From: Candidatus Endomicrobiellum basalitermitum
Lineage (GTDB): Bacteria > Elusimicrobiota > Endomicrobiia > Endomicrobiales > Endomicrobiaceae
Direction: 5' to 3'
DNA: 64,000 nucleotides
Assembly (NCBI GenBank): GCA_031282525.1
Contig: JAITDN010000004.1
Location: 1 to 64,000, forward strand
The notes below the pieces were generated by a model. The model saw only the letters and a program-made list of their open reading frames with translations, did not search any database and was not told the DNA's origin. Both the position numbers and the translations under genes were made by a program. Of the stretch, positions 50,770-63,666 are shown piece after piece. Position 1 is the first letter of the stretch, and each line of letters begins with the position of its first letter.

Positions 50770-52569
50770 TCAAATACTTACTTTAACATAACACCTAAAG
50801 AACATCCACTATTTCCATCTATGTTTATTATACGTAACAAGTAAAAACTGCATTGCAGTAGAAAACTCTTTAATTGTAACATTCATCTAACGAAACATCT
50901 ACCTCATCTAAAATACAAAAAGGAGAATGCTTTGCCATAAAAAAGAAAAATCAAAGCAAAACAGACTTAAAGCTTTTTCACCACTTGAACAAAGGGAAAT
51001 ACTTTGCAATTTCTTTCCCTGCTGGTTGTGTACGCAAGAATATCAATCTCACTTTCAAGAAACCACATTTATCGCTAAATATTAAATCCGCATTCCCCAC
51101 ACCACAAAAAAGTCTTATGTAAAGCTTTTTAAAATTTTCCTTCACAATGTTAAAAGCTTTTTTAAAAACTCTCAGCAGTGGAGTGATTAATTTTTTTATA
51201 ATTTCATGTGCAAGTCTTGTTGTTGTTCTAAAAGAGAATTATATTTTTGTTCTATAATCTAATACCCCTTGTGCCACAAGATTTACAAATATCAAAGATT
51301 CAATTTTATTCCTTATCATTTTAACTTCTTCAGTATTAATTTTAATATTATTACTAAAATTATTTTTTATTTCTTCATATTTTTTTCATAAGTATCTATA
51401 AGCTTTCTTTCTGAACCGTTTTTCTGATATTCAAGATTCTTAAAATTGATTTGCATGTTGTTTATTCCACTATTTGTACTATTTATTTTACTTTGTAAAT
51501 TGTGCAATTCGTCTATTTTTGTATTCAGCACAGTTTAAAACATTTTTGATTAGACGCAACTAATTCTAGAATCTTTTTATTGTTTTTAGAAATCTTAAAT
51601 TCAAATTTTTTTTACTTGACTTCTAAAATTAGTGATATTATCAATAATGTATTGATACTCTCTATTTTTTTCAATATGAACCCGTTTCTCATCAATCTGT
51701 GTTTTTTGATCTTTATCAGATCAAAACTTAAAACCTATTTCTCAATTAAGAGGCTCTCTCAATATTTATCTAGCTGCCGTATTTTAAATTGTATATTAGA
51801 AATATTCTACTTTATACCCCATCGACTCATCGTAAAGTCTTTTTGCCTGTCCTTCAATCAATAATCGGTTCTCAAAAAAATACCCCCCCCACACACATCT
51901 TGAACTAAAACATTCCTATAAACTCTAGTCTCTGAGATAAGAACATTAACATATAAAACGAATTATTTTTTTTCATCTCGTAAAAATCGTAGCTTTAAAT
52001 ATTTTATAAGTTCAGAATACCACCAAAGGAAGTCCTATATTGACACTTTTATGATAATCAAAAATCTTTTCAACAATTATAAACGAAAGTCTACTCAAAT
52101 TATTATTCTCTAAAAACCTAATAACATACTCGCCTTTTCTAAAGTTTCACATATAAGATAATTTAATTTTTCTCCTAAAATAGACGCGACAAATTCATGT
52201 TTATCCATATCAATAACAATCAAATTACTTATAATAACCCCTTGCAAAATCATCCAAATTCAATACTACTCTTATAGAGGATCTAAGGACATCTCTTTAT
52301 ACTTAAAAAAATCACTTTGTGAATTATCAAAAATAAGAGAAACTTCTGCCATTCCACTAGTAGTCCTTATTTGAGTATCACTAAATATAACTTTCTTGCA
52401 TATTAGAACTTCTCATTGATTTTGATTTTTTACTCTCAAAGACACCAACGTATAGAATCAACTATATTATATTTGCCCCATCCTTAGGACCTATAATACC
52501 CGAAATTCCATACTTAAATTTTGACACTGTCCTTTCCAAATCACTTACTTTTAATTTTTTTAAGTACAT
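50770..52569 (-). pseudogene. smc: Decayed smc (chromosome segregation ATPase)
   Basis: Minus-strand fragments in several frames align in order with SMC. N-terminal head: MYLKKLKVSDLE (from 52569), FKYGISGIIGPKDGAN (P-loop lysine deleted), VDSIRW, SMRSSNMQE, SGMAEVSLIFDNS. Hinge: FLENNNLSRLSFIIVEKI near 52070-52115. Second coiled coil: TEEVKMIRNKIESL. C-terminal head: LCSSGEKALSLF (about 50970-51005), SPFCILDEVDVSLDE (about 50896-50930). It spans 1.8 kb against about 3.5 kb for intact smc, so much of the coiled coil is deleted. Many stops and frameshifts exclude function. A G8 run lies at 51883-51890. Confidence 0.9.
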
Positions 52570-52768: not shown

Positions 52769-53881
52769 TTAATTACTATATATAGCATATTTCTTATATA
52801 TCCTACCATTCATCATCTCAACAGTACGTTGTGTCATTACATTATCATCAAGTACCCACGAAAGTTCGCAACGTTTATAGCCATTCTTAACTGCATTTTT
52901 TAAACCTCTTTCATACATAATAGCTTCAATACCTTTATGTCTATACTCCTTTAAAACACCCATTATCATAAGTCTCAAACCATCTATTTTCTTCCTATAA
53001 TATAAAAATTTTAAAATTCCAAAAGGGAGAAGCTTACCATCAAGTTTTTTAAAAACCTGATTATAATCAGGTAAAGAAATAAGCATTCCAACAGGAGAAT
53101 TTGCTACTGTTGCTATTATTATCATTTCTGGATCCATAAATATTTTTAACTTTGAGGAAATTTCAGCAAACTCTTCATTACTCCATGGGACAAAACCCCA
53201 ATTTTTTTCCCATGCATGATTATATATTGATATTATATCTTCTAAATATCTTTCAAATGATTCCTTTTGCATAGTTTTTATTTCTAACGTAGGAAGTTTT
53301 CTTTTAGCTATCGTTACGGCTTTCTCAAGTCTGTAAATTCTCGAATCCTCTGCGACATCCATATCATAAGCATAGAGTTCCTTTATCTTCCTAAGGCCAC
53401 ATTCTTCAGCAAGGCGCAAATAATATTGAGGAGTATAAGACATCATAAAACTTGGCGGTATATCAAATCCCTCTAATAAAAACCCACATTCATCATTTGT
53501 CGATGGATTCATAGGCCCCATCATTTTATGTATATTTTGCTCTTTAAGCCAATTCTTTACTGAAGAAAAAAGCGCTTTTGCCACCTTGTCCTCATCAAAA
53601 CATTCAAAAAAACCGAAAAATCCGCAGTTATCATTTTGAAATTTTATATAATTATGGTCTATTATTGCCACGACTCTACCAATAACATCATTATTGTCAT
53701 TATAAGCTAAAAAAAGTTGCTTTTTTGCATGTATCCAGAAAGGATTTTTAACTTCTGAAAGAATACTTGTAGTAGTTGAGATTAAGGGTGGTACCCACGG
53801 ACTATTTTTTGAATAAATTTTCCAAGGTAGACGAATGAATTCTTTAAATTGCCTTTTAGTACTTACTTTGATTACTTTCAT
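52769..53881 (-). CDS. GNAT-fold acyltransferase, probable bacterial ceramide synthase
   Basis: A 370-residue protein of the large GNAT-like family found in sphingolipid-making bacteria. Segments: RLPWKIYSKNSPWVPPL, NPFWIHAKKQLFLAY, IGRVVAIIDHNYIKF, GFFGFFECFDEDKVAKALF, MMGPMNPSTNDECGFLLEGF and a C-terminal acetyltransferase-like fold (GLRLMIMGVLKEYRHKGIEAIMYE) with a CoA-binding-loop pattern. It is third in an operon after a serine palmitoyltransferase-like gene and a CerR-like reductase. N-acylation of a sphingoid base is inferred from that context; the sequence alone shows only an acyltransferase of unknown substrate. Confidence 0.7.
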   Translation of the reverse strand: MKVIKVSTKRQFKEFIRLPWKIYSKNSPWVPPLISTTTSILSEVKNPFWIHAKKQLFLAYNDNNDVIGRVVAIIDHNYIKFQNDNCGFFGFFECFDEDKVAKALFSSVKNWLKEQNIHKMMGPMNPSTNDECGFLLEGFDIPPSFMMSYTPQYYLRLAEECGLRKIKELYAYDMDVAEDSRIYRLEKAVTIAKRKLPTLEIKTMQKESFERYLEDIISIYNHAWEKNWGFVPWSNEEFAEISSKLKIFMDPEMIIIATVANSPVGMLISLPDYNQVFKKLDGKLLPFGILKFLYYRKKIDGLRLMIMGVLKEYRHKGIEAIMYERGLKNAVKNGYKRCELSWVLDDNVMTQRTVEMMNGRIYKKYAIYSN

Positions 53882-53926
53882 TATATATATTAGTTTTCTC
53901 CTTGATTAGTTCTCTATGGCATTTAT

Positions 53927-55114
53927 CTAAACTAGTATATTAAGCTGTTTACCAACTTTCTCAAACTTTTCAAGGATAAAATTTAAATTATCGTCAGAAT
54001 GAGTAGCCATATAGCTTGTTCTAATTATAGAATGTCCTTCCTGTACTGCAGGGGTAACAACAGGTGAGGCAAAAACTCCTTCGTCAAAAAGCATTCTCCA
54101 CATCTTAAAAGCAACTAAATCGCTTCCCACAACTAAAGGTATAATAGGTGATTCTGAGCAACCTGTGTCATATCCCATAGATTTAAAAGCTGATTTCATT
54201 TTTTTAGAAATTTTTATAAGTCTCGCTCTTCGTTCAGGTTCAGCAACAATTAAATCCAAAGCAGCCTCTATAGCTCCTACACAAGCAGGGGGAAGACTTG
54301 CTGTGAAAATCATTGTCCTCGCATTATGTTTAATGTAGTCAACAACTTCAGCCTTACTGGCAATAAAACCACCAATGGAAGCCAAAGATTTAGAAGCCGT
54401 AGCCATCAGTACATCAATATCATCCATCATATTAAAGTATTCTCCAGTTCCTTTTCCATTTTTACCTATCACACCTAGAGAATGAGCTTCATCAACAAAT
54501 ACCTTTACTCCATATTTCTTTGCAAGTCTTGCAATTTCTGGCAAATTTGTGATATCACCTTCCATACTAAAAACTCCATCGACTACAATCAATATACATT
54601 TCCCTTTACACCTAACAATTTGCCTTTCAAGATCCGACATGTCATTGTGTCTAAATCTTACCATTTCGCCAAAAGATAAACGACAACCATCTATAATTGA
54701 AGCATGATCTAATTTATCCGTAATTAAAACCTCATTTTTCCCTGCTAAACTTGAAATAGCTCCTAAATTTGAATGATGTCCAGTTGTAAAAAGAATAGCT
54801 TCTTCTTTACCTACAAATTTCGCAAATTTTCTTTCAACTTTTTCATGCAAATCATTAGTGCCATTAAGAAATCTAGAACCTGTACAAGAGGTACCATATT
54901 TTTTCATAGCAACTATAGAAGCTTCAATAACTTTAGGATGATTTGCAAGTCCAAGATAATTATTGGAACAAACAACTATTTTTTTTTCACCATCAACTAT
55001 AACTTCCGGACCCTGTACAGATTCAACTTTGTGAAAATAAGGATAAAAACCCTTTATTTTAAGATTATTTACAACATTAAAGTTATAACATTTTTCAAAA
55101 ATATCAGAGCCCAT
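53927..55114 (-). CDS. spt: Alpha-oxoamine synthase, probable serine palmitoyltransferase
   Basis: This fold I PLP enzyme condenses an amino acid with an acyl-CoA or acyl-ACP. It has YPYFHKVESVQGPEVIV, SNNYLGLANHPKVIEA, GTSCTGSRFLNGTNDLHE, LDHASIIDGCRLS, VDEAHSLGVIGKNG and the lysine in ATASKSLASIGGF, then ARTMIFTASLPPA. The FTASLPP, SFGEMVRFRHNDM and ESPIIPLVVG segments fit serine palmitoyltransferases (Bacteroides type) better than KBL (2-amino-3-ketobutyrate ligase) or BioF. It begins 28 bp after the CerR-like gene, with GAGG at the ribosome site. KBL remains the main alternative. Confidence 0.82.
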   Translation of the reverse strand: MGSDIFEKCYNFNVVNNLKIKGFYPYFHKVESVQGPEVIVDGEKKIVVCSNNYLGLANHPKVIEASIVAMKKYGTSCTGSRFLNGTNDLHEKVERKFAKFVGKEEAILFTTGHHSNLGAISSLAGKNEVLITDKLDHASIIDGCRLSFGEMVRFRHNDMSDLERQIVRCKGKCILIVVDGVFSMEGDITNLPEIARLAKKYGVKVFVDEAHSLGVIGKNGKGTGEYFNMMDDIDVLMATASKSLASIGGFIASKAEVVDYIKHNARTMIFTASLPPACVGAIEAALDLIVAEPERRARLIKISKKMKSAFKSMGYDTGCSESPIIPLVVGSDLVAFKMWRMLFDEGVFASPVVTPAVQEGHSIIRTSYMATHSDDNLNFILEKFEKVGKQLNILV

Positions 55115-55142
55115 TTTTTCCTCTTTTGATATAACAAAATAT

Positions 55143-56120
55143 TCAAAAAAATCTATTGTTTAAATACCAATTATATGTTATTTTAGAACCAGCTTTAAAA
55201 GACGTAAAACTAACATTCAAATCTCTTGTTGAAGGCTCAGTATCTGCTATCCAATATTCAAGCATTTCATTGATTTTCTGTCTATTCAATAATGCAGGTC
55301 TTCTGGTAAAATAAGATAAAATTTCCATTGTTATCCCAACAAACTTAAAAATAAAATCAGGGATAAGAACTGGAACTGTTTTTAAATTGGCAGAAAAGGA
55401 TATAATTTTACCTACATCAGACCATGTATACGCAACAGTATCGGCAAGATAGTAACAATTATTATTAGTTTTTTCATTTTTCAGGCAATCTACAACAGAA
55501 TTTGCAACATCTTTTACGTAAACAAGTTGTAATAATTTTCTCATTAACGTTACAGGTCTTAAGTGTTTATGTACTAGTTTAAAAAATATAAACATATCCT
55601 TGTCTCTTGGACCATAAACGGCAGCAGGTCTTAATATAGTATATAACACTTTCCCATATAACTTTTTTTTTATTTCTCTTTCCGCTGCAAGTTTACTCAA
55701 ACCATAATCTGAAATTGGATTTTCTTTATCCGTAAGTTTTCTAAAGCCATCTGACATTGATGGTCCCATAGCGGCTTGAGAGGAAATAAATACAATTTTT
55801 TTTAATCTAGGATTTACTCTTAAAATTGTCTCACATAAGTTTTTGGTAATTTCTACATTTGTTTTAAAATACTCATCCTTAGTCATGGCACGTAAAACAG
55901 CAGCACAATGAACAATAACGTCCACATCTTTAACAATTTTTTCCAAAAAATTGTTATCACTTAAATTACCATATTTACAATCCAGAGACAAACCCCTTAT
56001 CCATTTCAAATTTGCTGTTTCCCTTAAAGAACATATAACATAGTGTTTTGCTTCAAGCAATGCCTCAACAATATGACTTCCAACAAAACCATTTGCACCT
56101 GTAACCAAAACTTTCAACAT
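55143..56120 (-). CDS. NAD(P)-dependent epimerase/reductase, probable ceramide/3-ketosphinganine reductase (CerR-like)
   Basis: An extended SDR protein of 325 residues. The cofactor site is VLVTGANGFVGSHIVEALL; VIVHCAAVLRAM, the YxxxK pair in YGLSKLAAE, and LRPAAVYGPRDKDMFIFFK follow. The VYGPRDKDMF region resembles the reductase that acts in bacterial sphingolipid synthesis. The gene is first in transcription order of a tight three-gene operon with spt and the acyltransferase. General nucleotide-sugar epimerase or SDR-type threonine dehydrogenase are alternatives; the latter has a different N-terminal pattern. Confidence 0.7.
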   Translation of the reverse strand: MLKVLVTGANGFVGSHIVEALLEAKHYVICSLRETANLKWIRGLSLDCKYGNLSDNNFLEKIVKDVDVIVHCAAVLRAMTKDEYFKTNVEITKNLCETILRVNPRLKKIVFISSQAAMGPSMSDGFRKLTDKENPISDYGLSKLAAEREIKKKLYGKVLYTILRPAAVYGPRDKDMFIFFKLVHKHLRPVTLMRKLLQLVYVKDVANSVVDCLKNEKTNNNCYYLADTVAYTWSDVGKIISFSANLKTVPVLIPDFIFKFVGITMEILSYFTRRPALLNRQKINEMLEYWIADTEPSTRDLNVSFTSFKAGSKITYNWYLNNRFF

Positions 56121-56279: not shown

Positions 56280-57060
56280 AAGAGATTCCTGGAATACAAA
56301 TTGTCGCATTAACACCAATCCATCTTACATTACAAACACATCACTTCAATTAAATCTCCTTATGCACACAAACCTTATTTTCGTCGTATACCTCTTCTTT
56401 TCTTTTTAAAATACAAGAACCTATAAAACAATTACAGTATCTTGATATTTAGCTCTAGTTTTATGTGCAACATAACATATACAACAAAATGGTTTTATTT
56501 CAAGTAAATGTTTTTTTATAAATTGAAGAACATAACTCGCATAACAGGAAATCGTCATAAAAGATTCCGCCTAACTTAATTCTTTTATCAAATTCTCCCA
56601 CTTCATTTATAATAGTTGTATCGGCTTCATAAAGATCAAAAAACGACACCAAAAGGACAACTTAGAATATATTTTTTCCACAATATTTATTGATATGCGC
56701 ATACACACTATATAATTTATTTTTACAGTACCGTTTGTATTTTTCTTAATCGTACTAACCTGACAAACATCTTCACAAAAAAACAATTATTTTCACAACA
56801 GAATTTATACAAACATGCTACTATACACATTTTACAATTCTTACATTCACCACTATTAATTATTGATTTTCAATTAATTATACTTAGCGCATCAAACTTA
56901 TACGCAATCCAACATGAAGTTACAAATATCCTTAACATATTACCCGTTACGTAAATTCTATTAGGTATACATCTTTTACAGACAATCTCCCTTACTTTAT
57001 CATCCTATAATAAAACCCAAACTCGCAATTACGCTCGATCTTTTAGAACCTCTGGATTTA
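56280..57060 (-). pseudogene. Decayed Fe-S (4Fe-4S dicluster ferredoxin-like) protein gene
   Basis: Minus-strand fragments preserve cysteine patterns in different frames: VCKRCIP (about 56985), INSGECKNCKMCIVAC (about 56813-56860), CEDVCQVSTIKKNTNG (about 56725-56776), and SCPFGVV (about 56643-56661), then CELCSS and CCICYVAHKTRAK. The order C-x2-C-x2-C-x3-C … C-x3-C … CPFG resembles CooF/HycB-type electron-transfer subunits. Stops and frameshifts interrupt it throughout. It lies directly downstream of etfA, so it may once have been a redox partner. Exact family and boundaries uncertain. Confidence 0.65.
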
Positions 57061-57197
57061 TAAAACTATAACATTTAAATCATTCCTATTATTCATTTCT
57101 GATAACTACGTTCACTTTTCAACTAATAAACAATTTTATTCTTTACAATTTTCAAATACCACTTAGAATTTCTTTTATTTATAAATTTTAAACAGAT

Positions 57198-60646: not shown

Positions 60647-61342
60647 TTATATTTTTATTTTTATCACAGAACGGTTTAAATTTTTCATTGCCTGCTTAGC
60701 AGCAGATTGATGAGACTCTTTTTTAGAATTCCCTATACCCTTTCCTAAGAATTTATCATTAACACACACAACAGCTTCAAATTTTTTGTCATGATCAGGC
60801 CCAACTTCTTTTATTATTGCATACTTAGGCAGCTCTTTATAAACAGACTGGACAACTTCTTGCAACCTACTTTTATAATCAGTAATCAATATTTCTTTTT
60901 GATTATTTAAAAATTTTAAAACAAATTTTTTTGCACTTCCAAACCCACCGTCTAAATATATCGCTCCTATGACAGCTTCAAACACATCGCACAATAAACT
61001 ATCTTTTATTCTTGCTTCATTTGTATTTTCATTTTTACCTAAGAACACATAAATTCCTAGATTTATTTCTCTAGCCCAATTACTCAAATTAGGAGTTGAA
61101 ACAATCTGAGCTTTAAGTTGTGACAACTTTCCCTCACTTTCATATGGATACTTTAAATAGAGAGTTTCTGCAACAATTGCTGAAAGAATACTATCTCCTA
61201 AAAACTCCATCCGTCCATTATAATCTCTTTTCTCAGCTTCAGTAATACAAGATTTATGCGTTAAGGCCACATTTAAAACTTTGATGTCATTGAACCTATA
61301 CTCAATAATCTTTTGAAGCTCTTCCTGATTTTTATTCAACAT
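60647..61342 (-). CDS. rnc: Ribonuclease III
   Basis: RNase III cleaves double-stranded RNA in rRNA maturation. The signature GRMEFLGDSILSAIVAETLY carries the catalytic acidic residues, a second acidic site is in DVFEAVIGAIYLDGG, and a C-terminal double-stranded-RNA-binding domain has GKGIGNSKKESHQSAAKQAM. Length 231 is usual. It overlaps fabF by 11 bp, the common fab-rnc arrangement. Confidence 0.97.
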   Translation of the reverse strand: MLNKNQEELQKIIEYRFNDIKVLNVALTHKSCITEAEKRDYNGRMEFLGDSILSAIVAETLYLKYPYESEGKLSQLKAQIVSTPNLSNWAREINLGIYVFLGKNENTNEARIKDSLLCDVFEAVIGAIYLDGGFGSAKKFVLKFLNNQKEILITDYKSRLQEVVQSVYKELPKYAIIKEVGPDHDKKFEAVVCVNDKFLGKGIGNSKKESHQSAAKQAMKNLNRSVIKIKI

Positions 61343-62573
61343 ATCTCTTTATTACAACAGTAGCATTGTGCCCACCAAAGCCTAAAGAATTTGAAATAGC
61401 ACAATTAATATATTTCATTCTTGCAGTATTCGGAACATAATCTAAATCACATTCTGGATCAGGAGTTTCATAATTTATTGTAGGGTGTATAAAACCTCCC
61501 TGCATAGCAAGAACAGTAGCTGCAAATTCTACAACAGATGCACCGCCCAAAAGATGTCCCATCATTGACTTTGTAGATGAAATAGGTATTTTATATGCTC
61601 TTCTAGCAAAAACTTTTTTTATCGCAAAAGTTTCTATCTTATCATTTAAAACAGTTGATGTTCCATGCGCATTTATATAATCAACTTCTTCTTTAGAAAT
61701 ACCTGCATCAATTATAGCTTTCTCCATAGCCAAAACAGCCCCTTTACCTTCAGGCTCAGGAGCAGTAATATGATAAGCATCATTAGACGCCCCATATCCA
61801 ACAAGTTCAACATATATTTTTGCCCCTCTATTTAACGCATGCTCTAGAGTCTCAAGCACAATCATACCAGCTCCTTCACCCATAACAAAACCATCGCGGT
61901 ACTTATCAAAAGGCCTTGAAGCCCTTTGTGGATCATCATTTCTCCTAGACAAAGCCCTAATAGAGCAAAAACCAGCTAGTCCTAATGGAACAATAGCACC
62001 TTCTGCACCACCTGAAATCATCACATCTACATCGCCACTGCGAAGCAATTGTAAAGCATCTCCAATAGCGCTGTTAGAAGATGCACATGCACTTGTAACA
62101 GTATAATTTGTTCCCGTAAAACCATAATGAATAGCTATCTCAGCGGGAAGTATATTTGTAATTATCATAGGTATGAGAAAAGGACTTACTTTCCTAGGTC
62201 CTTGCGCTAAAAGGGTTTGTTCCTCAACCTCAATTACATCTAAACCACCAATTCCAGTTCCGCTTATAACACCGATTCTTGACAAATCTTCATCATGTAG
62301 ATTAAGTTTTGAATCTTCAATAGCCATTTTTGCCGATGCAAATCCAAATTGTGTAAACCTTGCCATTCTTTTTATTTTCTTTTTATCAATAAATTGCTCA
62401 GGGGCAAAGTTTTTAACAACAGCCGCAAATCTTGTAGTATATGCACTTGTATCGAACGATTCAATAGCAGAAACACCTGACTTACCAATCTTTAATGCCC
62501 TGGTAAATTCAAAATTTCCTATACCTATAGGTGTAACAACACCTATGCCAGTCACAACTACCCTCTTGCTCAT
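61332..62573 (-). CDS. fabF: 3-oxoacyl-[acyl-carrier-protein] synthase II
   Basis: FabF elongates acyl-ACP with malonyl-ACP. The Cys-His-His triad is present: TSACASSNSAI (Cys), INAHGTSTVLND (His) and MMGHLLGGASVVEF (His). The N-terminal VVVTGIGVVTPIG and C-terminal NSLGFGGHNATVV are standard. Length 413. It starts 9 bp after acpP. Confidence 0.97.
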   Translation of the reverse strand: MSKRVVVTGIGVVTPIGIGNFEFTRALKIGKSGVSAIESFDTSAYTTRFAAVVKNFAPEQFIDKKKIKRMARFTQFGFASAKMAIEDSKLNLHDEDLSRIGVISGTGIGGLDVIEVEEQTLLAQGPRKVSPFLIPMIITNILPAEIAIHYGFTGTNYTVTSACASSNSAIGDALQLLRSGDVDVMISGGAEGAIVPLGLAGFCSIRALSRRNDDPQRASRPFDKYRDGFVMGEGAGMIVLETLEHALNRGAKIYVELVGYGASNDAYHITAPEPEGKGAVLAMEKAIIDAGISKEEVDYINAHGTSTVLNDKIETFAIKKVFARRAYKIPISSTKSMMGHLLGGASVVEFAATVLAMQGGFIHPTINYETPDPECDLDYVPNTARMKYINCAISNSLGFGGHNATVVIKRYVE

Positions 62574-62582
62574 TTCAACATC

Positions 62583-62822
62583 CTACTTTGTAGCGTGAGC
62601 CTTAACATAATCTATAGCACTTCCAACTGTTTGAATTTTTTCTGCTTCTTCATCTGGAATTTCAATACCAAATTCTTCTTCAAAAGCCATAACAAGTTCT
62701 ACGGTATCCAAAGAATCTGCACCTAAATCATTAACAAATGAGGCACCAATCACCACCTCAGCAGGATCTACACCCAACTGCTCAACAATAATTTTTTTTA
62801 CTCTATCCTCAAAATCTGCCAT
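62583..62822 (-). CDS. acpP: Acyl carrier protein
   Basis: The 79-residue acidic carrier has the phosphopantetheine serine in [18 protein letters not shown]. It carries growing acyl chains for fatty acid synthesis. A seven-G tract lies 10 bases before the ATG as the ribosome site. Located between fabG and fabF as in many bacteria. Confidence 0.97.
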
Positions 62823-62922: not shown

Positions 62923-63666
62923 TTACATGTACAAACCACCGTTAACAGACAAAATATGTCCAGTTATATAAGAAGAATCATCACACACTAAAAACAACGC
63001 TGCCCTTGCTACATCAATAGCTTCTCCAAATCTTCTAAGTGGTATTGCTGAAACCATAGTCTGCTTCCGCTCTTCCGTTAACTTATCTGTCATAGATGTA
63101 CTAATAAATCCAGGAGCAATAGCATTAACCAAAATATTTCTTGAAGCAAACTCCTTGGCACAAGTTTTAGTAATTGTAATTATACCTCCCTTTGATGCTG
63201 AGTAATTTATTTGACCTGCATTCCCTATTTGCCCTATAACAGAAGTTATATTTAGTATCCTACCATACTTTTGCCTAAACATAGGCTTGCTAACTGCTTT
63301 TATACAATTAAACACACCTTTTAAATTAACAGCTATAACTTCATCCCATTCTGTTTCTTTAATTTTTAAAACTAAATTATCTCTTGTTATCCCAGCATTG
63401 TTGACTAGTATATCTATTTTAGAAAAATTGTCAAGAGAAGTTTTAATCAAAGCTTCACAACTTTCTACTCTTGAAACATCTAAAGCAACTGGTACAGCTT
63501 CACAATTGTATTTTGCTATTATTTCATTAACTGTTTCTTGAGCTGATTCCATACTAGTTCCAGTAATTACAAGTTGTGCTCCTTCAGACGCAAAAAGTTC
63601 TGCTATAGCTTTCCCTATTCCTTTAGAAGAACCTGTAATAACTGCTGTTCTACCTTGAAGTTTCAT
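62923..63666 (-). CDS. fabG: 3-oxoacyl-[acyl-carrier-protein] reductase
   Basis: FabG reduces beta-ketoacyl-ACP with NADPH. Cofactor motif TGSSKGIGKAIAELFA, NNAGITRDNL, and the catalytic Ser-Tyr-Lys in ITSVIGQ and INYSASKGG. It ends GHILSVNGGLYM, the usual C-terminus. The start overlaps the fabD stop as ATGA. Length 247. Confidence 0.97.
   Translation of the reverse strand: MKLQGRTAVITGSSKGIGKAIAELFASEGAQLVITGTSMESAQETVNEIIAKYNCEAVPVALDVSRVESCEALIKTSLDNFSKIDILVNNAGITRDNLVLKIKETEWDEVIAVNLKGVFNCIKAVSKPMFRQKYGRILNITSVIGQIGNAGQINYSASKGGIITITKTCAKEFASRNILVNAIAPGFISTSMTDKLTEERKQTMVSAIPLRRFGEAIDVARAALFLVCDDSSYITGHILSVNGGLYM

Follow-up and report, generated by a model that had tools for sequence, protein, structure and literature searches.

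A putative ceramide operon kept intact between decayed genes in an Endomicrobiellum-type symbiont

The analysed window, a 64,000 nt stretch of DNA from Candidatus Endomicrobiellum basalitermitum, contains three genes that very probably form one operon for building the ceramide backbone, the core of sphingolipids. All three are encoded on the minus strand and are transcribed in the order SDR, serine palmitoyltransferase (SPT) and GNAT, with gaps of 28 bp (SDR/SPT) and 45 bp (SPT/GNAT). The original prediction had described three co-directional genes with these gaps, and the open reading frames lie where it placed them and on the same strand; the motifs that it quoted (ESVQG, GTSCTGSRFLNGT, FTASLPP, ESPIIPL and VYGPRDKDMF) are all found. 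The operon reading is based on the gene identities, the catalytic residues, the conserved gene order, the joint loss of the genes, and purifying selection. Overall, the ceramide operon appears to be genuine and of a known type, and in this host group it has seemingly gone unremarked; a literature search found no paper on ceramide or SPT in the Elusimicrobiota or Endomicrobia, and returned unrelated co-mentions only.

The host is an Endomicrobium/Endomicrobiellum-type symbiont of the Elusimicrobiota, a shrinking intracellular bacterium of termite-gut protists. Its source assembly comprises 719 kb in four contigs and is 84% complete, and the nearest named homologues of its SPT belong to Endomicrobium sp., Candidatus Endomicrobiellum cubanum and Ca. 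Endomicrobiellum devescovinae. Two members of the same genus (G021 and G031), with assemblies of ~0.2 and ~0.4 Mb spread over 3-4 contigs (66% and 76% complete), are without an SPT, and have possibly undergone extreme genome reduction.

The SPT (395 aa; 53927-55114, minus strand) has the serine palmitoyltransferase model NF047600 as its top NCBIfam match, with a score of 512 bits compared to 366-386 bits for the BioF/Kbl-type models. It misses the NF047600 equivalog cut-off of 640 bits, which is the threshold of a Bacteroidota (CFB) model and not a general property of SPTs; the S. paucimobilis and E. coli-type SPTs are covered by separate models. When compared to PDB chains, the best match is the Sphingobacterium SPT at 403 bits, versus 282 bits for the best KBL/BioF-type chain. 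In a maximum likelihood tree of 49 proteins, the window SPT groups with all SPTs, apart from KBL and BioF at a branch with 99/98 support, although the bootstrap had not entirely settled and the branch leading to E. coli BioF is long; the non-SPT side consists of E. coli KBL, E. coli BioF and two further KBL-type enzymes. The catalytic residues are conserved (Asn51, His137, Asp208, the PLP lysine Lys242 and Arg365), and position 272 is occupied by the SPT-diagnostic Ala seen in all SPTs of the comparison, where KBL has Asn and BioF has Thr. The tree and residues rule out a KBL or BioF identity for the synthase, and the SPT-like identity that had been proposed is upheld by the 99/98 split, with which Ala272 agrees. 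Elsewhere, a Priestia megaterium plasmid (L138, CP109762.1; Bacillota) carries an SPT-like gene, 49% identical, beside methyltransferase and acyltransferase genes.

The same chemistry could be carried out with another amino acid, either alanine or glycine, leading to 1-deoxy-type ceramides, or a bulkier one. A Black Sea study notes the use of alanine by Spt and proposes the use of lysine (PMC11334938), and pocket preference is not certain from sequence; against this, the catalytic and pocket residues agree with those of the S. multivorum SPT at nearly all compared positions, and we consider a different amino acid substrate improbable. Alternatively, the enzyme could condense cysteate with acyl-ACP in sulfonolipid (capnine-type) synthesis, like Alistipes SulA, which belongs to the same fold family and likewise uses, and prefers, acyl-ACP (PMC9304779). 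However, SulA differs from SPT by Lys281 at the Ala272 position (PMC9304779). Because the window SPT has Ala272 where SulA has lysine, a SulA-type synthase is rejected and sulfonolipid synthesis is highly unlikely; in addition, the PDB cysteate acyltransferase matches the window SPT at 241 bits, far below the Sphingobacterium SPT.

The third gene product, with SPT as its upstream neighbor, is a tandem-GNAT acyltransferase (370 aa; 52769-53881, minus strand). For ACYLTRANSFERASE, Pfam gives a weak GNAT domain only, and the NCBIfam search had no model for the family. E. coli YghO and this protein can be aligned from end to end at 31% identity (376 columns), and the family alignment has 42 members and 20 invariant columns. 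Its AlphaFold2 model has a pLDDT of 92.6, and a fold search with the model yields the tandem GNATs 7q3a, 5kf1 and 2c27 as the top PDB matches, at a probability of 1.00. The gene yghO (ECD_02850) is listed together with Caulobacter CC_1154 as a dihydroceramide N-acyltransferase gene (PMC9386255). The tandem GNAT is therefore a probable bacterial ceramide synthase of the CC_1154/YghO family, where the family assignment is made through YghO as the member compared, and the roles of E. coli YghO and CerR are themselves assigned via homology to Caulobacter genetics, not enzyme assays. The full-length homology to YghO is consistent with the ceramide synthase-like reading of the original prediction.

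The operon's first gene encodes a CerR-type SDR reductase (325 aa; 55143-56120, minus strand). Its motifs are intact and their columns invariant, including the NAD(P)-binding TGANGFVG at its start and Tyr139-x3-Lys143; Ser113 is also present, and no signal peptide is apparent on inspection by eye. SDR families are large. As SDR homology alone says little, whole genomes were searched for CerR, using E. coli CerR as the query against 19 genomes. In the 10 genomes where the SDR adjoins SPT, it was the best E. coli CerR match every time (10/10), with margins that were wide in most SDR-rich relatives (e.g. 94 versus 27 bits for the next SDR) and slim in G045 (48.5 versus 47.9 bits). In the window's own genome, the SDR is the only CerR match, and there were zero matches in the three genus members that lack both SPT and GNAT (G009, G012 and G032). 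The CerR search rules out a nucleotide-sugar epimerase identity, so that the SDR is CerR-like, as had been suggested.

All three operon genes are intact and show purifying selection, while the smc and hydrogenase genes on the operon's flanks have decayed. Upstream, a [FeFe]-hydrogenase-like relic (56377-57062, minus strand) contains frameshifts and stops; downstream, a relic of smc, which encodes a chromosome condensation protein, persists as fragments that are spread over three frames and contain many stops (50821-52569, minus strand). Both were recognized by comparison with G026, a genome of the same genus, where the intact counterparts are located at L043:4126-5580 (hydrogenase-like gene) and L043:9689-13165 (smc). 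These decayed flanks act as a natural control for the intactness of the operon. Pairwise dN/dS values versus genus members are 0.07-0.13 for SPT, 0.08-0.20 for GNAT and 0.13-0.31 for SDR, though they are rough because synonymous sites are near saturation in distant pairs. A scan of the operon region for promoters and terminators found sites no more numerous than in shuffled sequences.

Further, the presence of the cluster in related genomes, which the original prediction had offered as a check, is borne out: the SDR-SPT-GNAT order is kept across the genus, the order and part of the class, with full-length homologues in equal orientation. In deeper Elusimicrobiota lineages, SPT and GNAT still adjoin, and the CerR homologue, where found, is elsewhere. 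Among 80 named SPT loci of many phyla, the reductase, SPT and GNAT occur in equal order and orientation in 29, and the GNAT is directly downstream in 43; Nitrospirota, Myxococcota, Methylomirabilota and Zixibacteria are among the groups represented. The gene arrangement is far beyond chance, and its conservation in the genus, the order, part of the class and many phyla makes this ceramide system one of a known kind. Within the genus, 23 other members are at least 80% complete; 19 of these have all three genes (split over contigs in two cases), three (G009, G012 and G032; 90-95% complete) are missing all three together, and in the remaining one (G024) SPT is broken. Separately, a 99% complete genome (G038) contains an SPT that is 68% identical (L029:7344-8525), without an adjoining GNAT or CerR homologue and with no close one elsewhere.

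The decay of the adjoining genes, and the absence of the operon from three genus members, could indicate a non-functional remnant whose own decay is pending in a shrinking genome. However, the three open reading frames are intact, the catalytic residues are complete, dN/dS is well below 1, and most of the genus has kept the operon, which leaves a remnant scarcely credible. The last alternative takes the synthase for a 2-amino-3-ketobutyrate CoA ligase or an 8-amino-7-oxononanoate synthase, with a sugar epimerase (the SDR) next to it by accident; it draws on membership in large superfamilies and on the scores of the KBL and BioF models, and has a negligible probability, as the tree, the residues, the CerR test, the three-gene order and the joint loss are all contrary to it.

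For the ceramide operon, we infer the serine substrate, the acyl-ACP donor, the order of the steps and the membrane destination. In the proposed pathway, the PLP-dependent SPT would condense L-serine with a long-chain acyl thioester to form 3-ketosphinganine, with the loss of CO2; the tandem GNAT, of the bacterial ceramide synthase type, would then N-acylate it with a second acyl chain; and the CerR-type SDR would reduce the 3-keto group. In Caulobacter, it has been argued that acylation comes before reduction and that CerR is periplasmic (PMC11087976). The product, a (dihydro)ceramide or a headgroup derivative, would go to the symbiont's envelope.

The acyl chains would most likely come directly from fatty-acid synthesis, carried on AcpP (79 aa, with a DSL motif; 62583-62822, minus strand), which is encoded outside the operon and adjoined by fabF (61332-62573) and fabG (62923-63666). 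AcpP is the likely donor because no AMP-binding (PF00501) protein, and no AasR-like acyl-activating enzyme, was found in the window's own assembly, although the 84% completeness of that assembly makes the absence of acyl-activating enzymes less than certain. The operon itself contains no ACP gene that could be a dedicated AcpR. AMP-binding (PF00501) proteins were absent from the assembly of G000 and likewise from G005, G011, G027 and G029, and none was over the threshold in G036. The original prediction had also named a serA/aminotransferase pair and fab genes as possible suppliers of substrates; these genes are present, at ~20 kb (serA-like gene and aminotransferase) and ~5 kb (fab genes) from the operon, and they belong to general metabolism with no specific link to it.

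Sphingomonas lacks LPS. A host without LPS, like Sphingomonas, is ruled out here, as LpxC, LpxB, LpxK and KdtA are all encoded in the window's own genome. Two relatives with an intact operon (G027 and G006; both 83% complete) differ: LpxB, LpxK and KdtA were not found in either genome, and the sole trace of LpxC was a fragment full of stops in G006. Loss of lipid A genes in G006 and G027 is likely, as several genes are co-absent, and falls short of certain at 83% completeness. G009 and G032 have the reverse pattern, with LpxC and LpxB present and SPT missing. LPS genes are missing in many Endomicrobiellum, according to the main study of genomes from the family, in which sphingolipids go unmentioned (PMC11257099). 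In G024 (99% complete), ~700 bp of wreckage occupies the position of SPT (L041:6876-7588), between an intact SDR and an intact GNAT that are 67% and 72% identical to those of the window. Because the GNAT and SDR are intact while the SPT remnant has ~32% identity and contains stops, this locus suggests that both are still selected, possibly acting on sphingoid bases from the host; SPT may also have been lost only recently, as pairwise rates do not single out the time since its loss. That ceramide-type lipids partly replace LPS in the outer membrane, and that G024 salvages host sphingoid bases or ketosphinganine, is a combined scenario that we put forward tentatively and regard as rather doubtful. 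If true, the acylation and reduction of host sphingoid bases or ketosphinganine in the G024 lineage would be a bacterial ceramide salvage pathway.

The original prediction had called sphingolipids unusual outside Bacteroidota and some Proteobacteria, a view that is outdated, as SPT-like proteins have been reported from 38-40 phyla (PMC11334938). What is new here is an intact, selected operon between wrecked genes, with AcpP as the likely donor, together with relatives that have apparently lost lipid A but kept the operon, and a relative in which SPT alone is lost. Should these lipids be produced, the symbiont, which is intracellular, would present a eukaryote-like lipid class at the interface with its host, and the family, with its free-living and intracellular members, would provide a natural series for studying when LPS can be replaced by sphingolipids and would also suit the question of whether bacteria salvage host sphingoid bases.

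Known systems share parts of this design. The Sphingobacterium multivorum SPT (PDB 3a2b) has the fold family, PLP lysine, catalytic residues, Ala272 position and a similar length in common with the window SPT; in contrast, the Bacteroidota SPT genes examined lie outside any operon with a GNAT and an SDR. Alistipes SulA has the alpha-oxoamine synthase fold and a probable acyl-ACP donor in common with the window SPT, which is without the diagnostic lysine. Rhodobacteria use a dedicated ACP and an acyl-ACP synthetase (PMC9386255), and the ceramide cluster known from Rhodobacteria and E. coli has five genes, spt, acpR, cerR/epi, aasR and cerS/aca (CC_1154/yghO); it is complete on the chromosome of E. 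coli strain 2013C-4991 (L049). In E. coli K-12, yghO is interrupted by IS5 and is not adjoined by an spt gene. The window operon has the spt, cerR and cerS homologues in common with this cluster and, unlike it, is without acpR, in a genome where no aasR-like enzyme was found. Further, bacterial cerS has been described as always being in a separate operon (PMC11324152), contrary to which the window operon has cerS in line with spt. Further counterparts are the three-gene SDR-SPT-GNAT operons of Nitrospirota, Myxococcota, Methylomirabilota, Zixibacteria and other groups (L062, L063, L077, L092, L113, L070 and L071), which have the same genes, order and orientation; these belong to environmental metagenome-assembled genomes, whereas the host of the window operon is from a genus whose members are intracellular symbionts and have reduced genomes.
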